Of a stretch of DNA of 64,000 nt, positions 21,757 through 34,198 are shown piece by piece. The position numbers and the translations under genes were made by a program. The notes under the pieces are model-generated. The model was given only the letters and a program-made list of their open reading frames with translations. It made no database searches and had not been told where the DNA came from. The stretch is taken from the NCBI RefSeq assembly GCF_027925305.1, contig NZ_BSDR01000001.1, positions 275,001-339,000 on the forward strand. The letters run 5' to 3'. This DNA is from Desulforhabdus amnigena. Its GTDB lineage: Bacteria > Desulfobacterota > Syntrophobacteria > Syntrophobacterales > Syntrophobacteraceae. Numbering within the stretch: the first letter of the stretch is position 1; each line of letters opens with the position of its first letter.

Positions 21757-21903
21757 TTAGAGGATGTCTGAAAATTCCCCCCTTGAGGGGGGTAGGGTGT
21801 CAAGATTTCGCGAACCAGAAAAACACCCCCCTTGGCCCCCCCTCAAGGGAGGAATCGAAACAGGTTCGGCTCCCAAACAGAGGAATTTTCAGACAGCCTC
21901 TTA
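21757..21903 (+). mobile_element. MITE-like element, copy 2
   Basis: 147 bases nearly identical to 2809-2957, with the same inverted ends (gaggatgtctgaaaattcc, ggaattttcagacagcctc) and the same flanking TTA on both sides. Its right-hand TTA is, on the minus strand, the TAA stop codon of the HdrA-like gene at 21901-22788. The insertion point is therefore immediately behind that gene. Confidence 0.75.
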
Positions 21904-22788
21904 CTGAACGGCGGTCAGTTTCAGGGTTTCTTTCTCCGTGCTGATCAGACCGGTAACGTCTTGAGCGAGGAAATTGGCGTAGCTCATGGTGAGGCCCAGT
22001 TTTTTGCTGAGGTTTTTCACATCCTGGGAGATCTGGGGCTGCGTCAGGAGAACTACCAGGTCGAAGGTCCTGGTTTCTTGGGTTCCATTGCTCTCCACGG
22101 TCACCTGCAGGCTCTGGTTTTCCGCAGGTGTGAGGGCGCTCACGACGGCTTCCCGAATCTCGATTCTATCGAGACCTTTCAACGCCTCTTTCTGTTCCTC
22201 CAGGAAGGGGGCAAGGTCCTGGCCGAAAAGGCTGATTTCGGCTCCCGGAAGTTTCCTCCGGACGAGAATAGCCTCGTTGATACCGAGGAAGAGGGCCGCA
22301 CGGTGCATCTGGGGAGATGCCGAGGCATAGCTCTGAACGAAAGCGATGCTTGCGGGGATTTCACCGTCGTGAGGGCGGATGACGAGTCCCGCGCTCGGCC
22401 CCGATGCGCTCAGCATGCGCTCCAATTGCAGGTCCGTGATGATATTATTGTTTTTACCCAACCCGAAGAGAGGGTTCACGCGCTCAATAGGCCGTTCCAC
22501 CCCGGCGGATATGATGATGGTGTCCGCCTCCAGATCGAAGTATTCGTCCTTCATGTCAAAATTGATGGCTTCCGTTTTACATTCCGCCCAACAGAGGGCG
22601 CACCCCAGGCATCGTCGGCAGCTCAAACAGCGTTTCGCTTCCTGAAGAGCTCTTTCCTCATCGAATCCCAATTCCACTTCGTTGTAATTGTTTCGCCGTT
22701 CCTCGACCGGGATTTCAATGTGGTGCTGCCGCGCCTTGGGAATATCCTGGAACTCGACGATGTAGCGACCTTTTCTCTCGTATGTCAT
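21901..22788 (-). CDS. HdrA-like iron-sulfur protein (partial HdrA)
   Basis: 295 residues resembling only the middle part of HdrA. A cysteine-rich Fe-S site, CLSCRRCLGCALCWAECKTE, near residues 54-73 is followed by the HdrA-like stretch LEADTIIISAGVERPIERVN and LERMLSASGPSAG, seen also in the full HdrA proteins of the cluster. The N-terminal FAD domain and the C-terminal ferredoxins are absent. It is the last gene of the hdr cluster, 86 bases after the GltD-like gene, with a good GAGAGG site before the ATG. It may act as an adaptor between the GltD-like protein and other Hdr subunits; this is inference. Confidence 0.72.
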   Translation of the reverse strand: MTYERKGRYIVEFQDIPKARQHHIEIPVEERRNNYNEVELGFDEERALQEAKRCLSCRRCLGCALCWAECKTEAINFDMKDEYFDLEADTIIISAGVERPIERVNPLFGLGKNNNIITDLQLERMLSASGPSAGLVIRPHDGEIPASIAFVQSYASASPQMHRAALFLGINEAILVRRKLPGAEISLFGQDLAPFLEEQKEALKGLDRIEIREAVVSALTPAENQSLQVTVESNGTQETRTFDLVVLLTQPQISQDVKNLSKKLGLTMSYANFLAQDVTGLISTEKETLKLTAVQ

Positions 22789-22874
22789 TGTAACCTCTCT
22801 TAAAGAGATTCATTGTTCTTGCTGTGACTTGTTCACCTCGAGCTTAAATCCGCAATCGACTCAGAAAGGGGCCG

Positions 22875-24545
22875 TCATTTTCCTCTTTTTGCTTCGATGT
22901 AGCGAACGATCCCTTCAGCCGCCTTCCTGCCGCCGGCGCAGGCCCGAATGGCGATGTCCGGACCCGTTTCCACGTCACCCGCCGAAAAGATGCCGGGCAC
23001 ATTGGTCATGTAGTTCGCCCTGTTGACGGCGAAGGTGTTCCAGCGGGTGATGTCCAGGCCGCTGTTTTCCGGAACGAAAGCGAGGTCCGGGCGCTGGCCG
23101 ATGGCCGGGATGAGGGTTTCGGCTTCCACGACGAATTCCGACCCCTCGATGGGAACCGGTCGCCGCCGGCCGCTGGCATCGGGTTCCCCCAGCTGCATAC
23201 GAAGGCATTTGAGCCCTGTCATGCGGCCGTTTTCCCCCACTACTTCGATGGGCGCCACCAGGTATTGAAACTTGATTCCCTCGTGTTCTGCCGCCTCGAT
23301 TTCCCAGGGGCTGGCGGGCATTTCCTTTTTGGTGCGGCGGTAGAGCACATGAACCTCGTCGAACCCTTCGCGCCAGCTCACGCGCGCGGCATCCATGGCC
23401 ACGTTACCGCCTCCGATGATGATGACCTTCCCCTTGGCGTTGATGGGATTTCCCATGTTGGCGTCCCGCAGAAAATCGACTCCGTCGATGACGCCTTCCA
23501 TGTCTTCGCCCTTGATCTGGAGCTTCATCCCCTTGTGTGCGCCCACGCCCAGGAAGACCGCGTCGAACTGCTTCTGAATGTCCTCGAAGGAGATATCTTT
23601 TCCCACGCGGGTGTTGCAGCGCAGTTCAATGCCGTGGGAACAAATCCAGTCGATTTCTCTCATGAGGGTAGGGGTGGGAAGGCGGTACTCCGGAATGCCG
23701 TAGCGGAACATGCCGCCCGGTTCCGGCAGAGCTTCGAAACATACGGACTTGTATCCGGCCTTGGCGAGAAAATAGCCGCAGGTGAGTCCGGCTGGACCAG
23801 CCCCGATGATGGCCACTTTTTCCTTGTGGAACTCATCGGGAACTTCCACCGGGGCCTTAATGCCTTCCTTCATTTCCCAGTCCGCCACGAACCGCTTGAG
23901 GGTGCATATGGAAATGGGTTCGTCCATATAGCCCCGGTTGCAGGCGGATTCGCAGGGGTGGGGGCAGACACGGCCAATGGAGAGGGCAAAAGGAAGTCGC
24001 TCGCGGATCTTGGCGAGGGACTCTGCGTATTTCCCGTCGGCAATGAGCCCCACGTAGGAACGGATGTCCAGGTTGGCGGGGCAGGTGGCCTGGCAAATGG
24101 GCATGTCTTCCTTGAAGATATTGTACTGCCCGGTTTTGGGGTTGAAAAAGTCGATGGCTGTACGGAAACCGACGCCTTCGTTGAAGTCGTCATACATGTT
24201 GATGGGGCAGACCTTGATGCAGGCCTTGCAGTCGTCGCACTTTTCCCGGTCTACACGCGGTGTCCGCCGCTTGATCTTGAGCCGGAAGTTACCGTTATTG
24301 GCTTCCGTCCGCTGCACCTCGGCGCTGTCGATCACCCGGATGTTCGGGTGGCGCATGACGGCTTCAAGGTTGGGATCCACAAAATCATTCTCTCCCGAGA
24401 TGATCCGGGTTTGCGGAATCCGCTCACCTCCGAGGCCCGGAAGGGATTCGATCAGAGTTACCTGCATACCGGCTTCGGCTTGCTCCAAAGCTGTGGCAAC
24501 GCCAGCCGGATCGCCCCCAAAGATAATCACTCGTTTTCCTGACAC
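22875..24545 (-). CDS. GltD/NfnB-like NAD(P)H oxidoreductase with an N-terminal HdrA-like part
   Basis: 556 residues from the GTG at 24545, which has GGAGG eight bases upstream. The first ~100 residues are a reduced HdrA-like FAD region (VIIFGGDPAGVATALEQAEA) with the ferredoxin motif CDDCKACIKVCPINMY. The rest is the small-subunit glutamate synthase fold: cysteine motif CQATCPANLDIRSYVG, VCPHPCESACNRG, FAD motif VAIIGAGPAGLTCGYFLAKA and NADPH motif KVIIIGGGNVAMDAARV. Such proteins pass electrons between NAD(P)H and Fe-S partners, as in NfnAB. It probably links module B of the Hdr cluster to NAD(P)H. Confidence 0.82.
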   Translation of the reverse strand: MSGKRVIIFGGDPAGVATALEQAEAGMQVTLIESLPGLGGERIPQTRIISGENDFVDPNLEAVMRHPNIRVIDSAEVQRTEANNGNFRLKIKRRTPRVDREKCDDCKACIKVCPINMYDDFNEGVGFRTAIDFFNPKTGQYNIFKEDMPICQATCPANLDIRSYVGLIADGKYAESLAKIRERLPFALSIGRVCPHPCESACNRGYMDEPISICTLKRFVADWEMKEGIKAPVEVPDEFHKEKVAIIGAGPAGLTCGYFLAKAGYKSVCFEALPEPGGMFRYGIPEYRLPTPTLMREIDWICSHGIELRCNTRVGKDISFEDIQKQFDAVFLGVGAHKGMKLQIKGEDMEGVIDGVDFLRDANMGNPINAKGKVIIIGGGNVAMDAARVSWREGFDEVHVLYRRTKKEMPASPWEIEAAEHEGIKFQYLVAPIEVVGENGRMTGLKCLRMQLGEPDASGRRRPVPIEGSEFVVEAETLIPAIGQRPDLAFVPENSGLDITRWNTFAVNRANYMTNVPGIFSAGDVETGPDIAIRACAGGRKAAEGIVRYIEAKRGK

Positions 24546-24898
24546 AGTTGCATCCTCCACATGTTAGGGAGCAAACCATCAATACAGACGGAACACCCGG
24601 TGAGATCTTGAAGGCCGCCGGATGAAAACGTGAAAAAACGGCGGTCCATCCATCTTCCAACACAGCAGAATCTGCCACGTTGAATTTTGGGTGTTCCGGA
24701 GTCCAGCACATTGCGGCAAAAGCCGTTATCCCGCCTGGAATTTTCTGAAGTCCCCCTTCAAAGGGGGACTTCAGGGAGGAGTGTGCTTGCCTGCACACCC
24801 CCCTACCCCCCCTCGAGGGGGGAATCGAATGATTCAATGGCGTGAAAACTTTGGCCACCCATGTACCGGTCCCCTACACTCTCATCCATGCACCCGGC
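24546..24898. repeat. Gap with three stacked hairpins and a degenerate MITE-like sequence
   Basis: Between mvhD and the GltD-like gene. CTGAAGTCCCCCTT pairs with AAGGGGGACTTCAG (24745-24774), GTGTGC with GCACAC (24781-24798), and CCCCCCTCGAGGGGGG (24807-24822) is a perfect palindrome. The stretch sharing the G/C-rich core and ggaatcgaa of the elements at 2809 and 21757, plus ggaattttct at 24737, suggests a decayed relative. The hairpins could lower expression of the two distal genes. Confidence 0.55.
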
Positions 24899-25699
24899 TC
24901 ATGCGGCGTGAGCCGCCTGTTGAGCCGGCTTGCCCGCGACCTGGTACAGCGGGGAGTTGCCTTCGATTCCGGCCAGGTTCACAATTCCCCGACGCTGCAG
25001 CGCCAACACGTACTTGAGCACGTGCGGTGGTGGAAGTTTCAATGTTTCTGCAAGCTTCTTGACGGCAACCGGCCCCTTCTGCATTTCCGAGAGGATTTCA
25101 TAGGTGGCCAGTTCGTCCATGATGATGGTGTCGAGCGTCCGCCACATCTCATGATCGGTGAATTTTTCGCCGTACTTGTTGCCCGTGGTCGTGAATTCAG
25201 TGAATTTTCCCACTACCCAGCGCAGTTTCTCCTTGCCCAGGGCGGTCTTGGCAATGGCGATTTTTTCTTTGAGCTGGGGCAGGGGCAGTCGATCCGCCGT
25301 TCCCAGCGGTCCCAGTTCTTTTGTGCTTCGATCGAAGGCCGTGACCATGCTGACGAAGCGTTCACCTTCGGCTGATGAGCATTGATTGAAGGCAACCCTC
25401 TGGGGATTCAGGCCCGCATAATCCAGTGCCCGGGTCGCGAGTCCCACCTTGATCTTGGCCTGATAGTTGCCGGTTATGTAGTGGCAATCACCAAAATGAC
25501 ATCCCACCACCATCACTCCATCCGCTCCCTCAAGGAAAGCGTCCGCCAGCATGGTGGGGTCCACCCGGCCTGTACACATGAGCCGAATGATTCTCACGTC
25601 CGTCGTATATTGCATCCTGGAAACTCCAGCGAAGTCAGCCGCAGCGTAACCTCACCAGGTGCAGCAAAAAACCAGGATCTTCGGAGTAAATTCTGACAT
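24899..25699 (-). CDS. mvhD: MvhD-type iron-sulfur protein, selenoprotein (U16), fused to a winged helix
   Basis: 266 residues if the in-frame TGA at 25654-25652 is read as selenocysteine. The ATG at 25699 follows GAAGAGGAGA. The start reads FCCTW-U-GYAAADFAGVSR, so Sec takes the third cysteine place of the family motif CCxWC. The other family cysteines, MCTGRVDP and GCHFGDCHY, are present. A conventional reading would start at 25615 and lose the first cluster ligands. After about residue 140 there is an extension ending in a winged helix (VAVKKLAETLKLPPPHVLKY-VL then RRGIVNLAG). MvhD carries a [2Fe-2S] cluster that delivers electrons to HdrA in known complexes. Confidence 0.85.
25617..25629 (-). 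promoter_or_regulatory. Candidate SECIS hairpin of mvhD (module B)
   Basis: On the minus strand CTGGA-GTT-TCCAG forms a five-pair stem with loop GTT. It begins 23 bases after the UGA at 25654-25652, within the distance used by bacterial SECIS elements, and has G as the first loop base. The stem is short, so support is moderate. Confidence 0.55.
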
Positions 25700-25835
25700 C
25701 ACAGTCTCCTCTTCACAGCATCATCGGCTGTTTGCATTGGGTCATTGGAGATACAAGAATCAAAAATTTCGGTCGCCACAAAAACCATGAAAAGCAAAGC
25801 GTTGACTCTTCATTCCCACATAGGGACTCCGCGGC

Positions 25836-27509
25836 TCAACCCTGTAAAAATGCCTTAATCTGCTGTCCCACCTGTTCGTCCGTGTAAGAGTTCACGGAGA
25901 GTGCATGCTGATAGCATGTCGCCGCACAGACGCCGCAGCCTTTGCAGGCAACGGGAATGACCCTCACCTTGCGCCCCTTTTCGGTGCGCACGATTTCAAG
26001 GGCTCCGTAGGGGCAGAGTGCAACGCAGAGCCCGCAGCCGCGGCAGGCATCTTCATCCACCAGAGTGGAAACAATGGGTTCGGCCGTCATGATTCCCTTG
26101 GAAAGGGGAATGGATGCCCGTGAAGCCGCACCCAGTGCCTGGGAGACAGCTTCCCGAACGGTGGCCGGGTAGTGAGCGTTTCCGCAAAGGTAAATGCCGT
26201 CCGTAGCAAAATCGAGAGGTTTCAGCTTCACATGTCCTTCCAGGAAGAACTTGTTTTCATCCAGGGAGATGCGAAGCAGCTTCGAGATGGCCTCATTGTC
26301 TTCCCCGGCAATCAGGGGAGTCGAGAGGACAACGAGGTCCTGGGGCAAAGCCAGTTCCCTGCCGAGCAGGTGGTGGTAGACGATCACCTTGCCGGGTTCC
26401 ACTCTGGGTGGATCGTTCTGGTCGTATTTGATGAAGATCACTCCCAGTTCCTTGGCGTGTTGGAAGAGAGCTTCGTTTTCCACGCCGTAAGCCTGAATAT
26501 CCCGGTATAGGATACGGACGCCCGTTTGAGGACTCCGTTCCTTGATGACAATGGCATTTTTGATGGCCACCATGCAGCAGATGCGCGAACAGTACTTGCG
26601 TTCTTCGTTGCGGGCTCCTGCGCACTGAATCATGACCACATTTTGGGCATTGAACGTACCGGCCTTGAACCGTTCTTCCAGTTCCAACTGGTTGATCACG
26701 GTCTTGCCGTCGTAGTTGAAAAGCCCCACAGGTTTGAGTACTTGAGCGCCCGTGGCCACGATGATGACACCCACTTCGAAGTTGTCCGTGTTGCCATTGG
26801 ACGTTGCCGTGACATTGAAGTGCCCGATGTATCCCGCCACCTCATCGATTTGGGTCGAGGTCATGAGGCGGATTTTGGGATGTTTTTTTACCAGCTCCGC
26901 CTGCTGGGCGGCAAAAGTCCCCGCGTCCACGTTGGAAGGGGCCAGCTTGTCCAGTTGGAGGAGCAGTCCTCCCAACTGGGGAGTCTTTTCCACGAGCACC
27001 GTTTCATAGCCGCGGTTGGCCAGGGCGAGGGCGGCGGTCATGCCGCTGATTCCGCCTCCGATGACCATGGCTCTCGGGTTCATCTCCGACTGAATGGGTT
27101 CCTGGGGTTCCAGCAGTGCGGCCTTGGCCACTCCCATGCGAATGAGATCCTTGGCCTTCTCCGTACCACGCTCCCTTTCCTGCATGTGCACCCAGGAACA
27201 CTGGTCCCGAATATTGACCATTTCGAAGAGATAAGGGTTGAGTCCTCCCTCGCCGCAGGTTCCGCGGAAAAGGGGTTCATGGGTTCGGGGTGTACACGAA
27301 GCGACCACCACCCGGTTGAGATTTTCCTTCTTGATGGCATCCTTGATCTCGTTGATGCCGCTTTCAGAACAGGTGTAAAGGTTTTCTTTGACATAGACAA
27401 CGTTGGGCAGCGTTTTGGAATACTCAGCCAACTCCTTTACGTTCAGATAGCCGGCTATGTTGCTGCCGCAGTCGCAAACAAAAACACCAATGCGAAGTTT
27501 TTCAGCCAA
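25836..27509 (-). CDS. hdrA: HdrA-like flavoprotein, C-terminal-type half (no Sec)
   Basis: 557 residues starting at TTG with GAGGT seven bases upstream. It matches the second half of the fused HdrA at 30980-34198 throughout: [33 protein letters not shown], the FAD motif [20 protein letters not shown], and C-terminal ferredoxin motifs CRGCGLCVALCPYG and CKGCGVCAATC. The N-terminal FPTNxCxU segment is lacking here and is supplied by the gene upstream (27611-29161). HdrA is the flavin subunit that bifurcates electrons in heterodisulfide reductase complexes. It lies 101 bases after its partner. Confidence 0.88.
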   Translation of the reverse strand: MAEKLRIGVFVCDCGSNIAGYLNVKELAEYSKTLPNVVYVKENLYTCSESGINEIKDAIKKENLNRVVVASCTPRTHEPLFRGTCGEGGLNPYLFEMVNIRDQCSWVHMQERERGTEKAKDLIRMGVAKAALLEPQEPIQSEMNPRAMVIGGGISGMTAALALANRGYETVLVEKTPQLGGLLLQLDKLAPSNVDAGTFAAQQAELVKKHPKIRLMTSTQIDEVAGYIGHFNVTATSNGNTDNFEVGVIIVATGAQVLKPVGLFNYDGKTVINQLELEERFKAGTFNAQNVVMIQCAGARNEERKYCSRICCMVAIKNAIVIKERSPQTGVRILYRDIQAYGVENEALFQHAKELGVIFIKYDQNDPPRVEPGKVIVYHHLLGRELALPQDLVVLSTPLIAGEDNEAISKLLRISLDENKFFLEGHVKLKPLDFATDGIYLCGNAHYPATVREAVSQALGAASRASIPLSKGIMTAEPIVSTLVDEDACRGCGLCVALCPYGALEIVRTEKGRKVRVIPVACKGCGVCAATCYQHALSVNSYTDEQVGQQIKAFLQG

Positions 27510-27610
27510 TTTAGCACCTCATGATGAAGCGAAAGGCCAGAAGCTGAGGCGAAAAGAACGGCAGCAGAGGGATTGCCCGCTTTCCGCCGAATGCCGCTTG
27601 CATTTCGAGA

Positions 27611-29161
27611 TTATCCCACTGCTTCTTTTTTCTCGACTTTTGCCGGCGGGGCCACTACTTCGGCCGCCCGGGCCGCAGCGCTGCTTGCCTGAGCCACCGA
27701 CTCGGGAATGTCCATGGGGCCCTGAGCACATCCGCAGGTGAAAATTCCAGGCCGCGTGGTGTCCAGGGGGGACAGGGGATCCGTTTTGAAAAACCCGTTT
27801 GCATCGAGTTCCACGCCGAAAAGCTCAGCCACCCTTGGCGTGCCCTCCGTGGGAACGCAGGCGGTCGCCAGCACCACCAGGTCGAAGGCTTCGTGCTCCA
27901 CCTTCCGGCTGGTAGTGGATTCGTACCAGACGATGGGATTGTGGGCTTCATCCTCGGTGATTTCCGCCACGCGCCCTCGAACGTACTTGATATTGGCCTG
28001 CTTGCCGCCGCGAAGCTTGTACTCTTCGAAGCCCCGTCCCACAGCCCGAAGATCCATGCAGAAAATGGAGGAGGTTACCGAATTGTCGTGTTCATGCGCG
28101 ATCATGGCCTCTTTGACCGAGTGCATGCAGCAGTAGGAAGAGCAGAAGCGGTTGAACCTGAAGTCCCTCGATCCCACGCATTGGATAAAAGCAAGTTTCT
28201 TGGCCGTCTGTACCGTAGCCTTCTTCTGCTGCAAAACGGCCAACTCTTTTTCCAGGGCATTCAGTTTTTCCGCCGTTTCCGCCCAGCTCAAAAGGTCAGC
28301 GTCGCTGCCAGCGCTCCCCGATTTGACGGCTTCAATCACTTCAGCCGAGGACTTGCCGTGTTTGTCTTCGAGAGCCTTGACCTGGCGGCCGAGTTTCTTG
28401 ACTTCCTTTTCGGTTTCCTCGGCATCTTTTTCGATGAGGAGGTCCGACGGCCGGTCCAGGTGGCCGGCGGTGGGGCCGCTGGCGCTCAGGAGCCGCTCGA
28501 ATTCCAGGGCAGTGACAACATTGTTGATGCGGTCGTAGCCGTATTCGGGAATGACCGACGGGTCGAAGACGTCGTAGCCCGTGGCAAGAATGATGGCCCC
28601 GGCCTCCAGTTCCAGGATGGCGTCTTTCTGATCGAAATCGATGGCCTTGGCCTGGCAGACTTTGGCGCAGACGCCGCATTTCTTGCCCTGTCCCAACTGT
28701 CTGCATTCGGCGGCATCAATGGTAAAAACGGAGGGAATCCCCTGGGGGAAGTATTTATAGATGGCTTTGCGCTTTCCCATGCCTGCATTGAAGGCATCCA
28801 CCACCATAGTGGGGCATTTTTCCGCACAGGAACCGCAGCCGGTGCAAAGGTCTTCGTTGACGTAACGGGCTTTTTTTCGAACTCTTACTTTGAAGGCTCC
28901 CACATCTCCACTCACCTGCTCCACTTCACTGTAGGCAAGGAGGTTGATTCGAGGATGTCGACCGACATCCAGCAGCTTGGGCGAAAGGATTCAGATAGCG
29001 CAATCGTTTGTGGGAAAGGTTTTATCCAATTGAGCCATCTTTCCGCCAATGCTGGGCAGCCTTTCGACCATGTGGACCTGGATGCCCATTTCGGCCAAAT
29101 CCAGGGCCGCCTGTATGCCGGCGATTCCACCGCCGATGACTAATACATCGCTGTTGCTCAC
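27611..29161 (-). CDS. hdrA: HdrA-like flavoprotein, N-terminal-type half, selenoprotein (U57)
   Basis: 516 residues if the TGA at 28993-28991 encodes selenocysteine. The GTG start at 29161 has GAGAGGTG upstream and gives an intact FAD motif [20 protein letters not shown]; the frame then reads [19 protein letters not shown], the HdrA cysteine motif with Sec at its second cysteine. Reading only the frame after the TGA would leave a protein without its FAD domain. Ferredoxin motif [11 protein letters not shown] at about 106-116, a further cysteine set [17 protein letters not shown], and a coiled linker of about 90 residues follow. It equals the first half of the fused HdrA of module A. Confidence 0.88.
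28953..28970 (-). promoter_or_regulatory. Candidate SECIS hairpin of hdrA (module B)
   Basis: On the minus strand GGATGTC-GGTC-GACATCC is a perfect seven-pair stem with a four-base loop beginning GG. It starts 21 bases after the UGA at 28993-28991, fitting bacterial SECIS geometry. This is among the clearest hairpins of the four. Confidence 0.7.
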
Positions 29162-29313
29162 AATTCACCTCTCTCGGGTTGGGAATCAGTGATCGATGAT
29201 CTGTGGTCGAAAGCCAGGGGAAAAGGTGGATGGCATGCTGCAGCGTCCACTTTTTTCCCGGTCTGCAACCACATCACGTTTTATCAAAAATCGCATGTTC
29301 CATCAGACCGGGC

Positions 29314-30441
29314 TTACCCTTCCATGGTTTCGGCTATGAGGGCCGTCAGGTCCTTGATTTTCAGGTCCAAATCTATATTGCTCAGAGCGCAGCTCAGGTG
29401 GATCTGGCATTTGGGACAGGCTGTGATGAGGGTGTCCGCACCCGTCGCCCTGGCTTCCCGCAACCGTTCCACCTGGATTTGCTTGGATCCGCTCGAGCAA
29501 TTGGCCCAGCCGCTTGTTCCGCAACATACCGCATTTTCCCTGTTGCGTTCCATTTCCACAAAGTGACTGTTGGCGACTTTCTTGAGGATATTTCGGGGGC
29601 CCTCGAATATCCTGGCCATGCGTCCCAGTCTGCACGGATCGTGAAAGGTGTAGGTGCCGCTTCCGTTACTCAATTTCAAAGCCCCATCCGCCACCAACCG
29701 TTCCACGAAGTCATAGAACTGGATGACCTCGAAGCCCAATTCCCCCACATGTTCGGGATAGTGGTGTTTGAAGGTGTAATAGCCCTCGGGGCAGTTGAAG
29801 ACCACCCGTTTGGCTCCCGACTGACGGATCAGGTCCACGTTGCGCCGGGCCAGCTTCCTGAAAACTTCCGGTTTGCCGTTCCAGAGCATATCGTGGCCGC
29901 AGCAGGCTTCTTCGTCCGAAACCACGGGCACGATTCCCGCTTTGTTGAGGATTTTGATGACCTGCCTGCTGATGGTCAAGCTGTCCACTCCGATGTCGCG
30001 GAATATGACGTCAAAGTAAGGCATACATCCTACGAAAAAGAAGGTGTCTCCCTTGTCCGTCACCTTGCCGGCCTCATGGGCCCAGCCCGTCTTCTTCTGA
30101 TGGATTCCCTGAGTCTGCAATTCCATGATGGTCTGCAGCATTCCGTGATGCGCCAGAACAGGAGTGGTGCCGGCCTTGGTGGCTTCTTCCCGCAGAACGC
30201 GCATGAATTCGGGGAAATTGATGTTGGTGGGGCATCGTTCGTAGCAGCGGCTGCAGGTGAGGCAGGACCAAAGCTCCCGGTCATGGAGCAGTTCATCGCC
30301 CAATTCCAGCATGGCCTTTTCCACGATGAGCCGGGGTGAAAAAGTGGGTTGAACACGTGATACGGGGCAGCTTCCGGTGCAGACCCCGCAATCGAGACAA
30401 TAATACGTCTGATATTTTTGTACGGCTTCTTCTATATTCAT
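29314..30441 (-). CDS. HdrD-like heterodisulfide reductase subunit with two CCG domains
   Basis: 375 residues from the ATG at 30441, which overlaps the stop of the mvhD gene (ATGA). Two [4Fe-4S] ferredoxin motifs come first: CLDCGVCTGSCP (15-26) and CLTCSRCYERCP. Two CCG domains follow, with FVGCMPYFD and EEACCGHDM in the first and HDPCRLGR and NAVCCGTSGW in the second. This is the HdrC-HdrB or HdrD type; CCG domains bind non-cubane clusters that act on disulfides in known enzymes. The overlap with mvhD and the preceding fused HdrA suggest one complex. The natural thiol substrate in a bacterium lacking CoM/CoB is unknown. Confidence 0.87.
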   Translation of the reverse strand: MNIEEAVQKYQTYYCLDCGVCTGSCPVSRVQPTFSPRLIVEKAMLELGDELLHDRELWSCLTCSRCYERCPTNINFPEFMRVLREEATKAGTTPVLAHHGMLQTIMELQTQGIHQKKTGWAHEAGKVTDKGDTFFFVGCMPYFDVIFRDIGVDSLTISRQVIKILNKAGIVPVVSDEEACCGHDMLWNGKPEVFRKLARRNVDLIRQSGAKRVVFNCPEGYYTFKHHYPEHVGELGFEVIQFYDFVERLVADGALKLSNGSGTYTFHDPCRLGRMARIFEGPRNILKKVANSHFVEMERNRENAVCCGTSGWANCSSGSKQIQVERLREARATGADTLITACPKCQIHLSCALSNIDLDLKIKDLTALIAETMEG

Positions 30442-30857
30442 GCGGCCACTCCAAGGGAGGATTTTCCGAGCTTCTTGATCTTGTCGGTGAAGGAAGTGAC
30501 GATTTCGGCAAAACGGCCGCCCTCGGCCGAAGAAATCCACTGAAGTTCCAAACGTTCATTGTCGATGCCCATGAGATTGAGCAGTTCGCGGGTCATGTCC
30601 ACCATTCGGGCGGCTTTTTCATTACCATCCAGGTAATGGCAATCGCCGATGTGTCAGCCGGCCACCAGAATGCCGTCCGCACCCAATTGAAACGCCTTGA
30701 GGATGAAATCCGGAGAAACGCGGCCGGAACACATGACCCGAATCACCCTGATGTTGGGAGGGTATTGCAGCCGGCTGACTCCTGCCAGGTCCGCACCGGC
30801 ATACGCACACCAGTTGCAGCAGAAGGCAATGATTTTCGGTTCAAACTCCGTACTCAT
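30438..30857 (-). CDS. mvhD: MvhD-type iron-sulfur protein, selenoprotein (U68)
   Basis: 139 residues if the TGA at 30656-30654 is selenocysteine. The N-terminal part has [18 protein letters not shown] and VMCSGRVSP; the frame then reads [17 protein letters not shown], where relatives have GCHxGDCHY. The protein ends in the family-like [15 protein letters not shown] segment, so translation clearly continues past the TGA. The length matches MvhD. AAAGGA precedes the ATG, and the stop overlaps the start of the HdrD-like gene. It probably transfers electrons to the fused HdrA encoded just upstream. Confidence 0.9.
30620..30638 (-). promoter_or_regulatory. Candidate SECIS hairpin of mvhD (module A)
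   Basis: On the minus strand CATTACC-TGGAT-GGTAATG is a perfect seven-pair stem with a five-base loop. It starts 16 bases after the UGA at 30656-30654. Loop G's and spacing match bacterial SECIS elements. Confidence 0.7.
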
Positions 30858-30901
30858 AGTTTTGCATCCTTTGTCTGTTTTAACCTTTCACCCATTTGGC
30901 A

Positions 30902-30971
30902 AACCGCAGATGACGCAGGGGGTAAGAGAGCGGATCTTTTGCCCCTTTATGCTCTGCGCTCTCTGCGGTGA
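30902..30971 (+). repeat. Palindromic repeat inside the hdr operon
   Basis: accgcaga (30903-30910) is exactly complementary to tctgcggt (near 30962-30969), with further partial pairing (gacgcag, ctctgcg). It fills most of the 122 bases between the fused hdrA and mvhD. In layout it resembles the R2 repeats at 15642 and 37023, with GCAG in place of ACAG. It may be an RNA processing or attenuation structure. Confidence 0.5.
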
Positions 30972-30979
30972 ACATTGTT

Positions 30980-33900
30980 TTATTTGCAGAGCGCCGCCTC
31001 TACCATGGAGAGGACTTCCCGGTCATTGAAATGGCGGATGGCCGCAGCCCCTGTGGGGCATGCCACGGCGCAGGCTCCGCAACCCTTGCAGAGGGCTTCC
31101 TGAATGCGTGAAACAACGACGTCTTCACTCTTCTGGATCAGCTGAGGCGCTCCATAGGGGCAGACCTCCACGCATTTGCCGCAGCCCCGGCAGAGCCCTT
31201 CGTCCACACTGGCGACCACGCCTTCGACTTCGATGCTCTTCTGGGAAAGAATCGTGGCCGCTCGAGCCGCCGCAGCCTGAGCCTGAGCGATGCTCTCGTC
31301 GATGGACTTGGGGTAGTGAGCCAACCCGCATACAAAGAGCCCTTCCGTGGCAAAATCCACGGGCCGAAGCTTCATATGCACTTCCAGGAAAAACTTGTCC
31401 TGGCTGAGAGGCACCTTGAACATCTGCCCCAGTTCCTCCGCTCCACGGGTTTCTATGGCGGTGGCCAGGGTGATGAAGTCGGGGGTGAGGGTAATGGGAC
31501 GCTGCAGGATGTGGTCCATGACCGTGACTTCCAGGGTTCCCCCCTTGCCTTCCTTCACGACGGGTTTGTTTTCTAAGTTATAGCGGATAAAAATCACGCC
31601 GCGCTTGCGGGCTTCCTTGTAAAGGTCTTCACGCTCGCCGTAGGTGCGGATGTCGCGGTAAAGAATGTAGACATCCATATTCGGGTTGCGTTCCTTTAGT
31701 TCCACAGCCTTTTGAACCGAAAAGGTACAGCAGATTTTGCTGCAGTGGGGGCGTTCCGGTTCGCGAGATCCCACGCACTGAATGAAAAGAGCGCTTTGGG
31801 CATTTTTCACCAGGTCGCTTTCCCAGGCCGCATCCAGGTCGTGCCAGCGGAACACGCGATCGTTTTTGCCGTAGAGGTATTCGTTCGGCTTGATGGAATG
31901 GGCTCCCGTAGCCAGAATCGTGACCCCGTGTTCCAGTTCCTTCTGACTTTCGGTGCCATTGGAAGATACGGTCGTCTTGAAATTGCCCACATATCCCGCA
32001 ACATTTTTCACCTGCGTCTTCAGATGCACCTGGATGTTGGGGTTGGCTGTCACCTCCTGAACGAGACTCTCGACGAAAGCCGGTACATCCTCGTTTTTCC
32101 AGGTGCGGTGAATCTTGAGGGCATGTCCGCCGAGGCGGTCTTTCTCTTCGACGATATGAGCCTTAAATCCCTGTTTTGCCAAAGTGAGGGCGCTCACCAT
32201 GCCGGCAATGCCTCCGCCCACCACCAGGGCCGATGGATTCACCGGCACCGAAGGATTGGGGAGGGGTTCGATGAGGGCGGCTCTGGAAACAGCCATGCGC
32301 ACCAAGTCCTTGGCCTTTTCTGTGGCCGCGTCGGGATCAGCGGCGTGAACCCATGAACACTGATCGCGGATGTTGGCCTGTTCAAACAGGTACTTGTTGA
32401 GAGAACTGTTCCGAAGGGTTTCCTGGAAAAGGGGTTCGTGAGTACGCGGGGAACAGGCGGCGACGACCACCCGGTTGAGGTTCTGTTCCTTTATGACGTG
32501 AACCAGTTTGTCCTGAGCGTCCTGCGAGCAGGAGAAAAGGTTTTCCTGAACGTAAACGACATTGGGAAGCGTCTTGGCGTATTCCACGACTTCCGGCACG
32601 CGCACGACGTTTGAAATGTTGACCCCGCAGTTGCATACGAAAACACCGATACGCGGCGGTTCCGTGCTCACATCCCTTTCCTCGGGGAAGGTCTTCGCCT
32701 TGACGAGGGTGTTGCGTGATGAAGCGAGGCGACTTGCCGCTGCGCCTGCTGCAGCTGAGGCTTCCATCACGGCCAGAGGAATGTCCTTGGGACCCTGAAG
32801 GACGCCGCAGGCGTAAATACCGGGCCGTGATGTGGCGACGGGCGAAAAACTGCTCGTGGCGGCAAAATGGTAATGGTCGAGTTCAATCCCGAGCTTTCTC
32901 GCAAGTTCCCGCACTTCCGGCGTGGATTCCAGCCCTACCGAGAGCACCACCATATCGAATTCTTCTTCCCTCATGATGCTGTTGTCGTCCACAAAACTCA
33001 GCCGGAGATTTTCCGAACGTGCCACGCGTTCGACGCTGTGGACACGGGACCGGATGAAGCGGATTCCGCTTTCCTTCGCACGGGTGTAATACTGTTCGAA
33101 CTCTTTCCCATAAGTACGCATGTCCATGTAAAAGATGGCCGCATCCAGATCGCCCTTGGCGTGTTCCCTGGCGATGACGGCCTCCTTGATGGCATACATG
33201 CAGCAGACACCCGAACAGTAACCATTGTCACAGTGATTGATATCTCTCGATCCCACGCATTGGAGCCAGGCGATCTTTTTGGGCTCTCCCGCGGCAGCTT
33301 TCTTTTCCTTCAGGGAAGCGGCCAGGGTTTCCTGGCTCTTCAGCTTTTCCAGCAGGTCTGGAGAAGGTTCCCCTTTCTCTCTTTGCTGCTTGACCTGTCG
33401 ATCCAACTTCTGCAGCTCCTTTTCTGCATTGGCGATCTCTTCCTTCAAAGATAGTTCGGAAGGCCGCTCCAAATGACCGGCACTGGGTCCTCCCGCGCTC
33501 AGGAGCCGTTCGAACTCCATCGCCGTGACCACATTGGGATACCGGATATACCCGTAGGTGTCAAACGGGCTCGGATCAAAGGCCTGGAAGCCGGTGGAGA
33601 GAATCACCGCCCCCACGTCGAGGTCCAGGAGCTGTTCTTTTTGATCGTAATTGATGGCATCTGCAGGACAGACCTTGGCGCAAATTCCGCACTTCTTGCC
33701 ATGTCCCAGTTGACGGCAATTCTCCGAATCGATGGCGTAGGCGGAAGGGATGGCCTGAGCGTAGTACTTGAAAATGGCCTTGCGTTTGCCGAGTCCCGCA
33801 TTGTAGGCGTCGATCACCACTGTGGGGCACTTTTCGGCACAGGCACCACAGGAGATGCATTTATCGAGATCTACATAGCGAGGTTTTTGGAGGACTTTTA

Positions 33901-34198
33901 CTTGAAAATTTCCTTCTTCACCGCTGATGCTTTCCAATTGAGAATTGGTGAGAAGGTTGATGTTGAGGTGCCGGCCGACCTCGACCAGCTTTGGAGAAAG
34001 GATTCACATTGCGCATTCATTGGTGGGAAACGTTTTGTCCAGTTGAGACATGCCTCCGCCGATGGCCGGGCCTTTTTCCAGAAGATGCACATAATATCCC
34101 GAATTGGCCAGGTCCAAGGCCGCCTGCATGCCTGAGATTCCCCCACCGATGACTAAAACCGCACCGATGGTACTGCTGCCTAGCTCTTTGGTCGCCAT
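30980..34198 (-). CDS. hdrA: Double-length HdrA fusion flavoprotein, selenoprotein (U65)
   Basis: 1072 residues if the TGA at 34006-34004 is selenocysteine. The ATG at 34198 follows GGGAGGAATT. Order: FAD motif [20 protein letters not shown], the motif [17 protein letters not shown] with Sec at the second cysteine, ferredoxin [11 protein letters not shown] (114-124), [16 protein letters not shown], a coiled linker near 240-270, then from about residue 516 a second HdrA half ([14 protein letters not shown]), a second FAD motif near 657 ([15 protein letters not shown]) and two C-terminal ferredoxins ([28 protein letters not shown]). Normal HdrA is about 650 residues, so this is a fusion. It is the first gene of the cluster. 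Confidence 0.9.
33970..33989 (-). promoter_or_regulatory. Candidate SECIS hairpin of hdrA (module A)
   Basis: On the minus strand GCTGGTC-GAGGTC-GGCCGGC folds into seven pairs, two of them G-U, with a six-base loop beginning with G. It starts 15 bases after the UGA at 34006-34004, matching bacterial SECIS spacing. Confidence 0.6.

Follow-up and report, generated by a model that had tools for sequence, protein, structure and literature searches.

Four in-frame UGA codons in an Hdr/Mvh-type gene cluster of Desulforhabdus amnigena very probably encode selenocysteine

A 64,000-nucleotide stretch of the Desulforhabdus amnigena genome (contig NZ_BSDR01000001.1, positions 275,001 to 339,000; hereafter the window) carries on its minus strand, at 34198-21901, a cluster of eight genes that includes relatives of the heterodisulfide reductase subunit HdrA and of the iron-sulfur protein MvhD, and four of these genes contain an in-frame TGA codon (Table 1). 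The original prediction, made from the sequence alone, had placed the four TGAs at conserved cysteine positions and read them as selenocysteine (Sec, U). Reading the codons directly confirmed all four, and on read-through each is embedded in the conserved flanks that had been described: TNECAMUILSPK in hdrA-1, LVAGUHIGDCHY in mvhD-1, TNDCAIUILSPK in the N-terminal half of hdrA-2 (hdrA-2N) and CCTWUGYAA in mvhD-2. Each of these genes holds one internal TGA and is otherwise open to its next in-frame stop (TAA 30982 for hdrA-1, TGA 30440 for mvhD-1, TAA 27613 for hdrA-2N and TGA 24901 for mvhD-2), so that two of the four, mvhD-1 and mvhD-2, also terminate on TGA. No internal TGA occurs in the HdrCB/GlpC-like gene, the C-terminal half of hdrA-2, the GltD-like gene or the HdrA-like fragment gene. 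We consider it very likely that the four UGA codons encode selenocysteine, a reading supported by the codons themselves, the machinery genes, codon conservation in relatives and constraint on the downstream RNA.

Table 1. Genes and predicted RNA elements of the cluster (window positions; SECIS, selenocysteine insertion sequence).
Feature	Description	Position	Strand
hdrA-1	Tandem HdrA-type flavoprotein, 1072 aa, Sec65 (TGA 34006-34004, CAMU)	30980..34198	-
hdrA-1 hairpin	SECIS-type, 8-bp stem, loop 22 nt after UGA	33970..33989	-
mvhD-1	MvhD/FlpD, 139 aa, Sec68 (TGA 30656-30654, site 2, GUHxGDCH)	30438..30857	-
mvhD-1 hairpin	SECIS-type, 7-bp stem, loop 22 nt after UGA	30620..30638	-
HdrCB/GlpC-like gene	Fe-S protein, 375 aa, two CCG domain matches, without Sec	29314..30441	-
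hdrA-2 N-half	516 aa, Sec57 (TGA 28993-28991, CAIU)	27611..29161	-
hdrA-2 hairpin	SECIS-type, 7-bp stem, GGUC loop 27 nt after UGA	28953..28970	-
hdrA-2 C-half	Own gene, 557 aa, without Sec	25836..27509	-
mvhD-2	266 aa, Sec16 (TGA 25654-25652, site 1, CTWU), TGA terminator	24899..25699	-
mvhD-2 hairpin	Putative SECIS, 4-bp stem, loop 26 nt after UGA	25617..25629	-
GltD-like gene	NAD(P)-binding oxidoreductase, partial HdrA-like N-terminus, without Sec	22875..24560	-
HdrA-like fragment gene	HdrA-like/Fer4_20 fragment protein, 295 aa, without Sec	21901..22788	-

Once joined, the frames match profiles of HdrA and MvhD as well as chains of solved structures. The best NCBIfam match of hdrA-1 is NF040770 (E 3.7e-283; 941.4 bits, under a cut-off of 1100 set for a differently built full-length protein), and its match to the solved HdrA chain 5odc_A has an E-value of 8.9e-189, with Cys62 and Sec65 aligned to residues 194 and 197 of that chain. 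HdrA-1 residues 14-247 and 305-439 align with residues 146-511 of 5odc_A, which we take to be the flavin part with its inserted ferredoxin part; residues 513-684 align with the N-terminus of 5odc_A, and residues 915-1068 with its C-terminal region, presumably a ferredoxin part. HdrA-2N is similar to the first part of HdrA-1. The mvhD genes match the MvhD profile (PF02662), with a fold match in addition for mvhD-1, and mvhD-2 consists of an MvhD domain followed by a C-terminal extension without a Pfam match.

We then compared the four codons with their counterparts in relatives. A search with mvhD-2 as the query returned 373 stretches encoding a relative, of which the best 80, forming 79 loci, were used; among these, the closest relatives are Desulfobacterota contigs, several of them named Syntrophobacteraceae, and the closest match for mvhD-2 (88%) belongs to Desulforhabdus sp. 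TSK. BLAST rows at an E-value of 1e-15 or better entered the codon table, own-genome loci were excluded from the counts, and the main counts comprise rows with at least 36% identity, less similar rows being tallied apart. At the HdrA position, 37 of 75 rows have TGA, 37 a cysteine codon and one another codon. At the two positions of MvhD, called site 1 and site 2 here, the 110 rows divide into 28 with TGA, 81 with cysteine and one gap (site 1), and into 14 with TGA and 96 with cysteine (site 2), no other codon appearing at either. The claim that the TGAs stand at conserved cysteine positions is thus upheld by TGA or cysteine in 74 of 75 HdrA rows and in all MvhD rows but the one with the gap.

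All four TGAs recur in an identical layout in eight of the 79 loci (L067, L075, L082, L085, L089, L090, L094 and L096), among them those of Desulforhabdus sp. TSK (L067), Desulfoferrobacter suflitae (L085) and Candidatus Desulfatibia vada (L089); L082 and L094 seem to be close relatives of one another. A further six loci have the three downstream TGAs only. In three of these (L068, L072, L079) the upstream part is apparently cut by contig ends, and in the other three (L070, L074, L081) a motif search of the upstream sequence found no HdrA CxxU or CxxC site. We also surveyed 395 genomes of the phylum for the TGA forms, using degenerate DNA patterns that had to match exactly. These matched in 154 genomes for HdrA and 107 for MvhD site 1, both figures being raw pattern matches, and in 43 for MvhD site 2, while reversed control patterns gave 0 in every one of the 395 genome rows.

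Bacterial SECIS elements place their loop 16-37 nt from the UGA and have a G among the first loop bases. We folded the 51 bases 3' of each TGA with RNAalifold over distinct homologues, using 100 column shuffles as the control; the sets, shared with the analysis of codon conservation, had identity cut-offs of 52% (hdrA-1), 60% (hdrA-2), 65% (mvhD-1) and 50% (mvhD-2), counted identical 58-base stretches once and included paralogues from a second cluster of the same genome (described below). The expectation of a SECIS after each codon was borne out by strong hairpins in hdrA-1, mvhD-1 and hdrA-2; for mvhD-2 the hairpin is weak and the codon constraint strong. In the hdrA-1 hairpin (12 sequences, z -4.3) the inner six pairs are invariant and the outer two are kept in 10 of 12; the mvhD-1 hairpin (15 sequences, z -5.0) has three outer pairs in addition to its stem, and the hdrA-2 hairpin rests on 17 sequences (z -3.8). 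None of the 100 shuffles reached the energy of any of these three, all of which have a G within the first two loop bases. One pair of the mvhD-1 hairpin is A-U in 13 sequences and G-C in two, and one pair of the hdrA-2 hairpin is U-A in 11, C-G in three and U-G in three. In both hairpins one base of this pair changes with an amino-acid replacement (Val to Ala in hdrA-2, His to Arg in mvhD-1), and its partner changes so as to keep the pair. The RNA element seems to be under selection strong enough for amino-acid replacements in it to be accompanied by pair-keeping changes. For the putative mvhD-2 SECIS, all four pairs are kept in 23 of 23 distinct sequences.

Synonymous sites tell of the same stretch. 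Synonymous identity at codons +5 to +12 was 0.80-0.86, compared with 0.45-0.52 elsewhere in the regions examined (codons -55 to +120, -50 to +120, -60 to +55 and -8 to +100 of the four genes, rather than whole genes). In all four genes synonymous identity peaks in an eight-codon window that begins at codon +4 or +7 relative to the TGA, ranking top of 78, 148, 91 and 75 windows, respectively, in those regions. Across all sites, the mean folding z-score was -1.15 after TGA (93 sites) and -0.11 after cysteine codons (232 sites), in a comparison from which sites with short or N-holding flanks were excluded and in which own-genome loci were included, the window genes partly twice.

The 4.54-Mb single-contig genome encodes the full insertion machinery. 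Matches to selA (620.4 bits), selB (383.2 bits) and selD (403.9 bits) all exceed their family cut-offs, as does that of the selenocysteine tRNA, tRNA-Sec (selC; 72.9 bits), to which ARAGORN assigned the anticodon tca. The presence of all four genes, which the original prediction had proposed as a check, removes the objection that the organism might have no such machinery.

Several observations weigh against the selenocysteine reading or lessen the force of its evidence. The mvhD-2 hairpin is energetically weak (z -1.4) and was reached by 8 of 100 shuffles; for this site the mean z-score is -0.24 after TGA (29 sequences' sites), scarcely lower than the -0.17 after cysteine codons (18 sites), and folding is on average less stable after TGA (mean energy -7.6) than after cysteine (-9.6). 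An Rfam search at E-values up to 1 gave no relevant match here. The rows of the codon table are kin sequences, not independent events, and the single exception among the HdrA rows, in locus L136, has a non-cysteine codon at 44% identity. Below 36% identity, other codons appear in 10 of 19 HdrA rows and in one of four MvhD site-1 rows (L100); nine of these 10 HdrA rows directly follow an mvhD-2 homologue, at the place expected for a GltD-like gene with an HdrA-like start.

Other explanations of the four codons fare worse. If the TGAs were mistakes of sequencing or assembly, or inactivating mutations in genes under decay, this would explain why they break the frames under translation table 11, but the same codons occupy the same positions in the eight loci of other genomes, the downstream synonymous sites are constrained and the frames are otherwise intact; we regard this as extremely improbable. 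Chance or assembly error is ruled out because the TGAs recur at the same positions in other genomes, and the idea that resequencing would reveal TGC or TGT instead is not borne out for the same reason. In-frame UGA in several genes would also follow from a genome-wide reassignment of the codon, for example to tryptophan or glycine, with no selenocysteine involved. This we reject, leaving it next to no probability, because TGA terminates mvhD-1 and mvhD-2, an argument drawn from these genes and not from a genome census; moreover, the internal TGAs stand at cysteine positions, TGA is missing from 10 of the genome's 16 MvhD matches, and tRNA-Sec, selA and selB are present. The terminal TGA of mvhD-1 is kept in 13 of 15 homologues, so that UGA would mean both Sec and stop inside one short gene. 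Equally hard to credit is the notion that the downstream halves are separate, internally started proteins and the upstream halves leader peptides: open reading frames of at least 80 aa with an ATG, GTG or TTG start (table 11) do follow three of the TGAs, but the upstream parts are conserved, including the start of HdrA that binds flavin adenine dinucleotide and Cys14 and Cys17 of MvhD, and the solved relatives are single chains across the UGA point.

A different kind of alternative is that UGA serves as a regulated stop under low selenium, with cysteine paralogues substituting, so that the cluster would in part be a selenium switch. TGA-less MvhD and HdrA paralogues in the genome favour it, as does the case of Methanococcus maripaludis, which switches between Sec- and Cys-containing versions of HdrA and of Vhu subunits depending on how much selenium is available (PMC11097638). 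A switch would not conflict with Sec insertion but add to it, and we consider it possible though rather unlikely.

Returning to selenocysteine at all four codons, the two MvhD proteins differ in where they would carry it. The reading of both MvhD motifs as Sec motifs was supported; that the positions are not the same had gone unremarked in the original prediction. In mvhD-1 the Sec is residue 68 (site 2), and in mvhD-2 it falls at the position of mvhD-1 residue 17 (site 1). Both are among the five cysteines (mvhD-1 residues 14, 17, 43, 68 and 73) that never vary in an alignment of 20 sequences in which Sec is entered as Cys. In an AlphaFold2 model of mvhD-1 (mean predicted local distance difference test score 90; best Protein Data Bank match 5odh_D, template modelling score 0.93), residues 17 and 68 come shortly after the strands 9-14 and 62-67, and they are presumed to border the [2Fe-2S] site.

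Among the 110 MvhD rows, 67 have cysteine at both, 28 have Sec at site 1 only, 14 have Sec at site 2 only and one has the gap at site 1, and Sec at both was found in 0. The phylum survey gave 54 site-2 matches in its 43 genomes; of the 30 read in context, 28 have cysteine at site 1 and one has Sec at both, and the remaining one (L172) was rejected as a chance match outside the MvhD frame. When the two match lists were compared by eye, at least 12 of the 395 genomes, under four family labels and including that of D. amnigena, had a site-2 match and, 4.6-5.0 kb downstream of it on the same contig, a site-1 match (G000, G296, G276, G371, G255, G073, G106, G105, G132, G273, G368 and G103); exact patterns were used, so this number is a lower bound. 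A 2026 review tabulates Sec-containing MvhD with CxxU only and with two Sec, and mentions multiple Sec in some archaeal forms (PMC13188914). The mvhD-2 product fits the tabulated CxxU type (CTWU) and mvhD-1 does not, having Cys there and Sec at GUHxGDCH. The second Sec of the multi-Sec archaeal forms may well be site 2, and for this reason we do not claim site 2 as a previously unrecorded position.

The gene content leans towards a cytoplasmic Hdr/Mvh-type complex that would carry electrons, probably via flavin-based bifurcation or confurcation. Sec would be inserted by the bacterial SelA/SelB/SelC/SelD system, directed by a SECIS-type element just 3' of each codon, to give two flavoproteins of the HdrA type, whose Sec lies in a CxxU loop, and two iron-sulfur connectors of the MvhD type, each with Sec in place of one of two invariant cysteines. 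The HdrCB-like subunit, and perhaps the GltD-like protein, would join them, and electrons would pass among a partner of the NAD(P)H type, the flavins of HdrA and an acceptor, either a thiol/disulfide or another compound. NAD(P)H as the donor or acceptor is suggested by the neighbouring GltD-like gene, in analogy with the HdrL fusions of Desulfobacterium autotrophicum. The role of Sec would be to tune or accelerate the passage of electrons near the [2Fe-2S] site of MvhD and the flavin of HdrA. More speculatively, and in our view improbably, Sec might act as a ligand of the MvhD cluster or as a relay to the bifurcating HdrA flavin, the two connectors with complementary Sec and Cys then forming two electron paths of different potential. 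How electrons cross from MvhD to the bifurcating flavin of HdrA in the solved complexes has been called unknown (PMC12350162). Many genomes of one phylum offer natural exchanges of Sec and Cys, at one position of HdrA and two of MvhD, that could be used to address this step.

The cluster is a selenoprotein cluster of an already known type, in the same bacterial group. The original prediction had said that the type is known, and rightly so: Sec-HdrA and Sec-MvhD have been described in Syntrophobacter fumaroxidans (PMC1794560) and in D. autotrophicum (PMC2702500). S. fumaroxidans has seven Sec-containing HdrA and eight Sec-containing FrhD proteins and three five-gene operons (PMC1794560). It resembles D. 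amnigena in these multiple Sec-HdrA and Sec-FrhD/MvhD proteins, in its clustered hdrA copies, which are also split into hdrA_N and hdrA_C, and in its affiliation, several named relatives of the present cluster being Syntrophobacteraceae. In contrast, the operons of S. fumaroxidans include frhG, frhA and a Sec-containing GlpC, whereas no gene of the FrhA/FrhG type is among the six that run from hdrA-1 to mvhD-2; these comprise two HdrA and two MvhD units, and encode an HdrCB/GlpC-like protein that keeps its cysteine. None of the seven genes scanned among the eight at 34198-21901 passed an FrhA or FrhG model (for some proteins, among the best 25 families), hdrA-2N giving a partial match to a ferredoxin-type FrhG (24.6 bits, cut-off 245.5) and mvhD-1 matching as FlpD. 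With frhG and frhA unmatched in the genes scanned, the cluster does not fit the glpC-hdrA-frhD-frhG-frhA five-gene operon type. The layout without frhA and frhG, and the split between site 1 and site 2, were not met in the literature consulted, which covers few subscription papers and involved no search aimed at the layout. Class II benzoyl-CoA reductase also has HdrA-, HdrD- and MvhD-like subunits (BamDEF), with Sec in BamF.

D. autotrophicum HRM2 encodes 31 selenoproteins, including hdrA1, hdrA2, hdrL1, hdrL3, hdrD4 and four mvhD (PMC2702500); its hdr loci are associated with mvhD as they are here, and its HdrL is a fusion of Hdr and glutamate synthase (PMC2702500). The archaeal hdrA-frhD/vhuD operons are alike in having Sec in HdrA (CxxU) and in MvhD/VhuD, with the genes adjacent (PMC11227280, PMC13188914, PMC11097638). 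Their SECIS is looked for in the 3' untranslated region, whereas the hairpins here lie within the coding region, in bacterial fashion. The solved HdrABC-MvhAGD and Elp-Hdr complexes (5odc, 8rvu and others) share the HdrA and MvhD sequence and the MvhD fold, with Cys where Sec stands here (PMC12350162); they differ in being built from methanogen subunits with MvhAG, FdhAB or ElpAB as the donor module, the neighbour here being GltD-like.

An operon with four selenoprotein genes in Deltaproteobacteria has already been reviewed (PMC13188914). Since, in addition, a second cluster in the D. amnigena genome contains five TGAs, the presence of four Sec genes in one operon is less exceptional than had been implied. 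What the comparison provides is firm evidence for four selenoproteins that simple gene callers would break or miss. The second cluster (positions 2737789-2746496 of the single contig, C1; L176) has the same gene order, with TGAs in the tandem HdrA, in an MvhD (site 2), in the HdrA N-half and at both sites of the second MvhD. Genome-wide, six of the 16 MvhD matches have TGA, one of them two, and six of the 52 stretches matched by HdrA-2N (several per gene) have TGA.

The stop codon of mvhD-1 (TGA 30440-30438) overlaps the start of the HdrCB/GlpC-like gene as ATGA (30438-30441), and the other gaps among the first six genes measure 101-152 bases. Promoter and terminator scans of the window stayed at shuffle level (four promoter-like sites, 5.8 expected; 19 terminator-like sites, 16.7 expected); a single operon is therefore something we infer. 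Two further candidates for Sec sites were rejected: the terminal TGA of mvhD-1, which overlaps the ATG of the next gene, and the CCG motif of the HdrCB/GlpC-like protein as a fifth site, where the codon is one for cysteine. A UGH motif is tabulated for Fe-S oxidoreductase-like selenoproteins (PMC13188914). Between mvhD-2 and the GltD-like gene, which are 338 bases apart, a near-perfect G+C-rich palindrome lies at 24748-24771; it occurs at a single place in the window, and Rfam returned a sub-threshold microRNA match only.

Elsewhere in the genome, selD itself carries one in-frame TGA, about 0.9 kb after a TGA-bearing mvhD of the site-1 form (C1 1264711-1266918, L177), and the neighbouring HdrA and other MvhD have Cys. 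Another MvhD, at C1 3633962-3634330 (L025, L180), has a site-2 TGA in the variant motif VAGULPGQCHF, with an HdrA match without TGA about 2.5 kb upstream. In nine of the 79 relatives' loci (L069, L073, L076, L077, L082, L085, L094, L102 and L103), a low-identity HdrA-like stretch without the CxxC/CxxU residues lies 3' of mvhD-2, at about the place of 22875-24560, and is probably the start of a GltD-like gene. In seven other loci (L112, L118, L120, L123, L127, L136 and L138), on contigs that include Aminicenantes, Coatesbacteria, Zixiibacteriota and Acidobacteria, an all-Cys MvhD stands beside an HdrA (37-41% identity) whose CxxU position is encoded by TGA.

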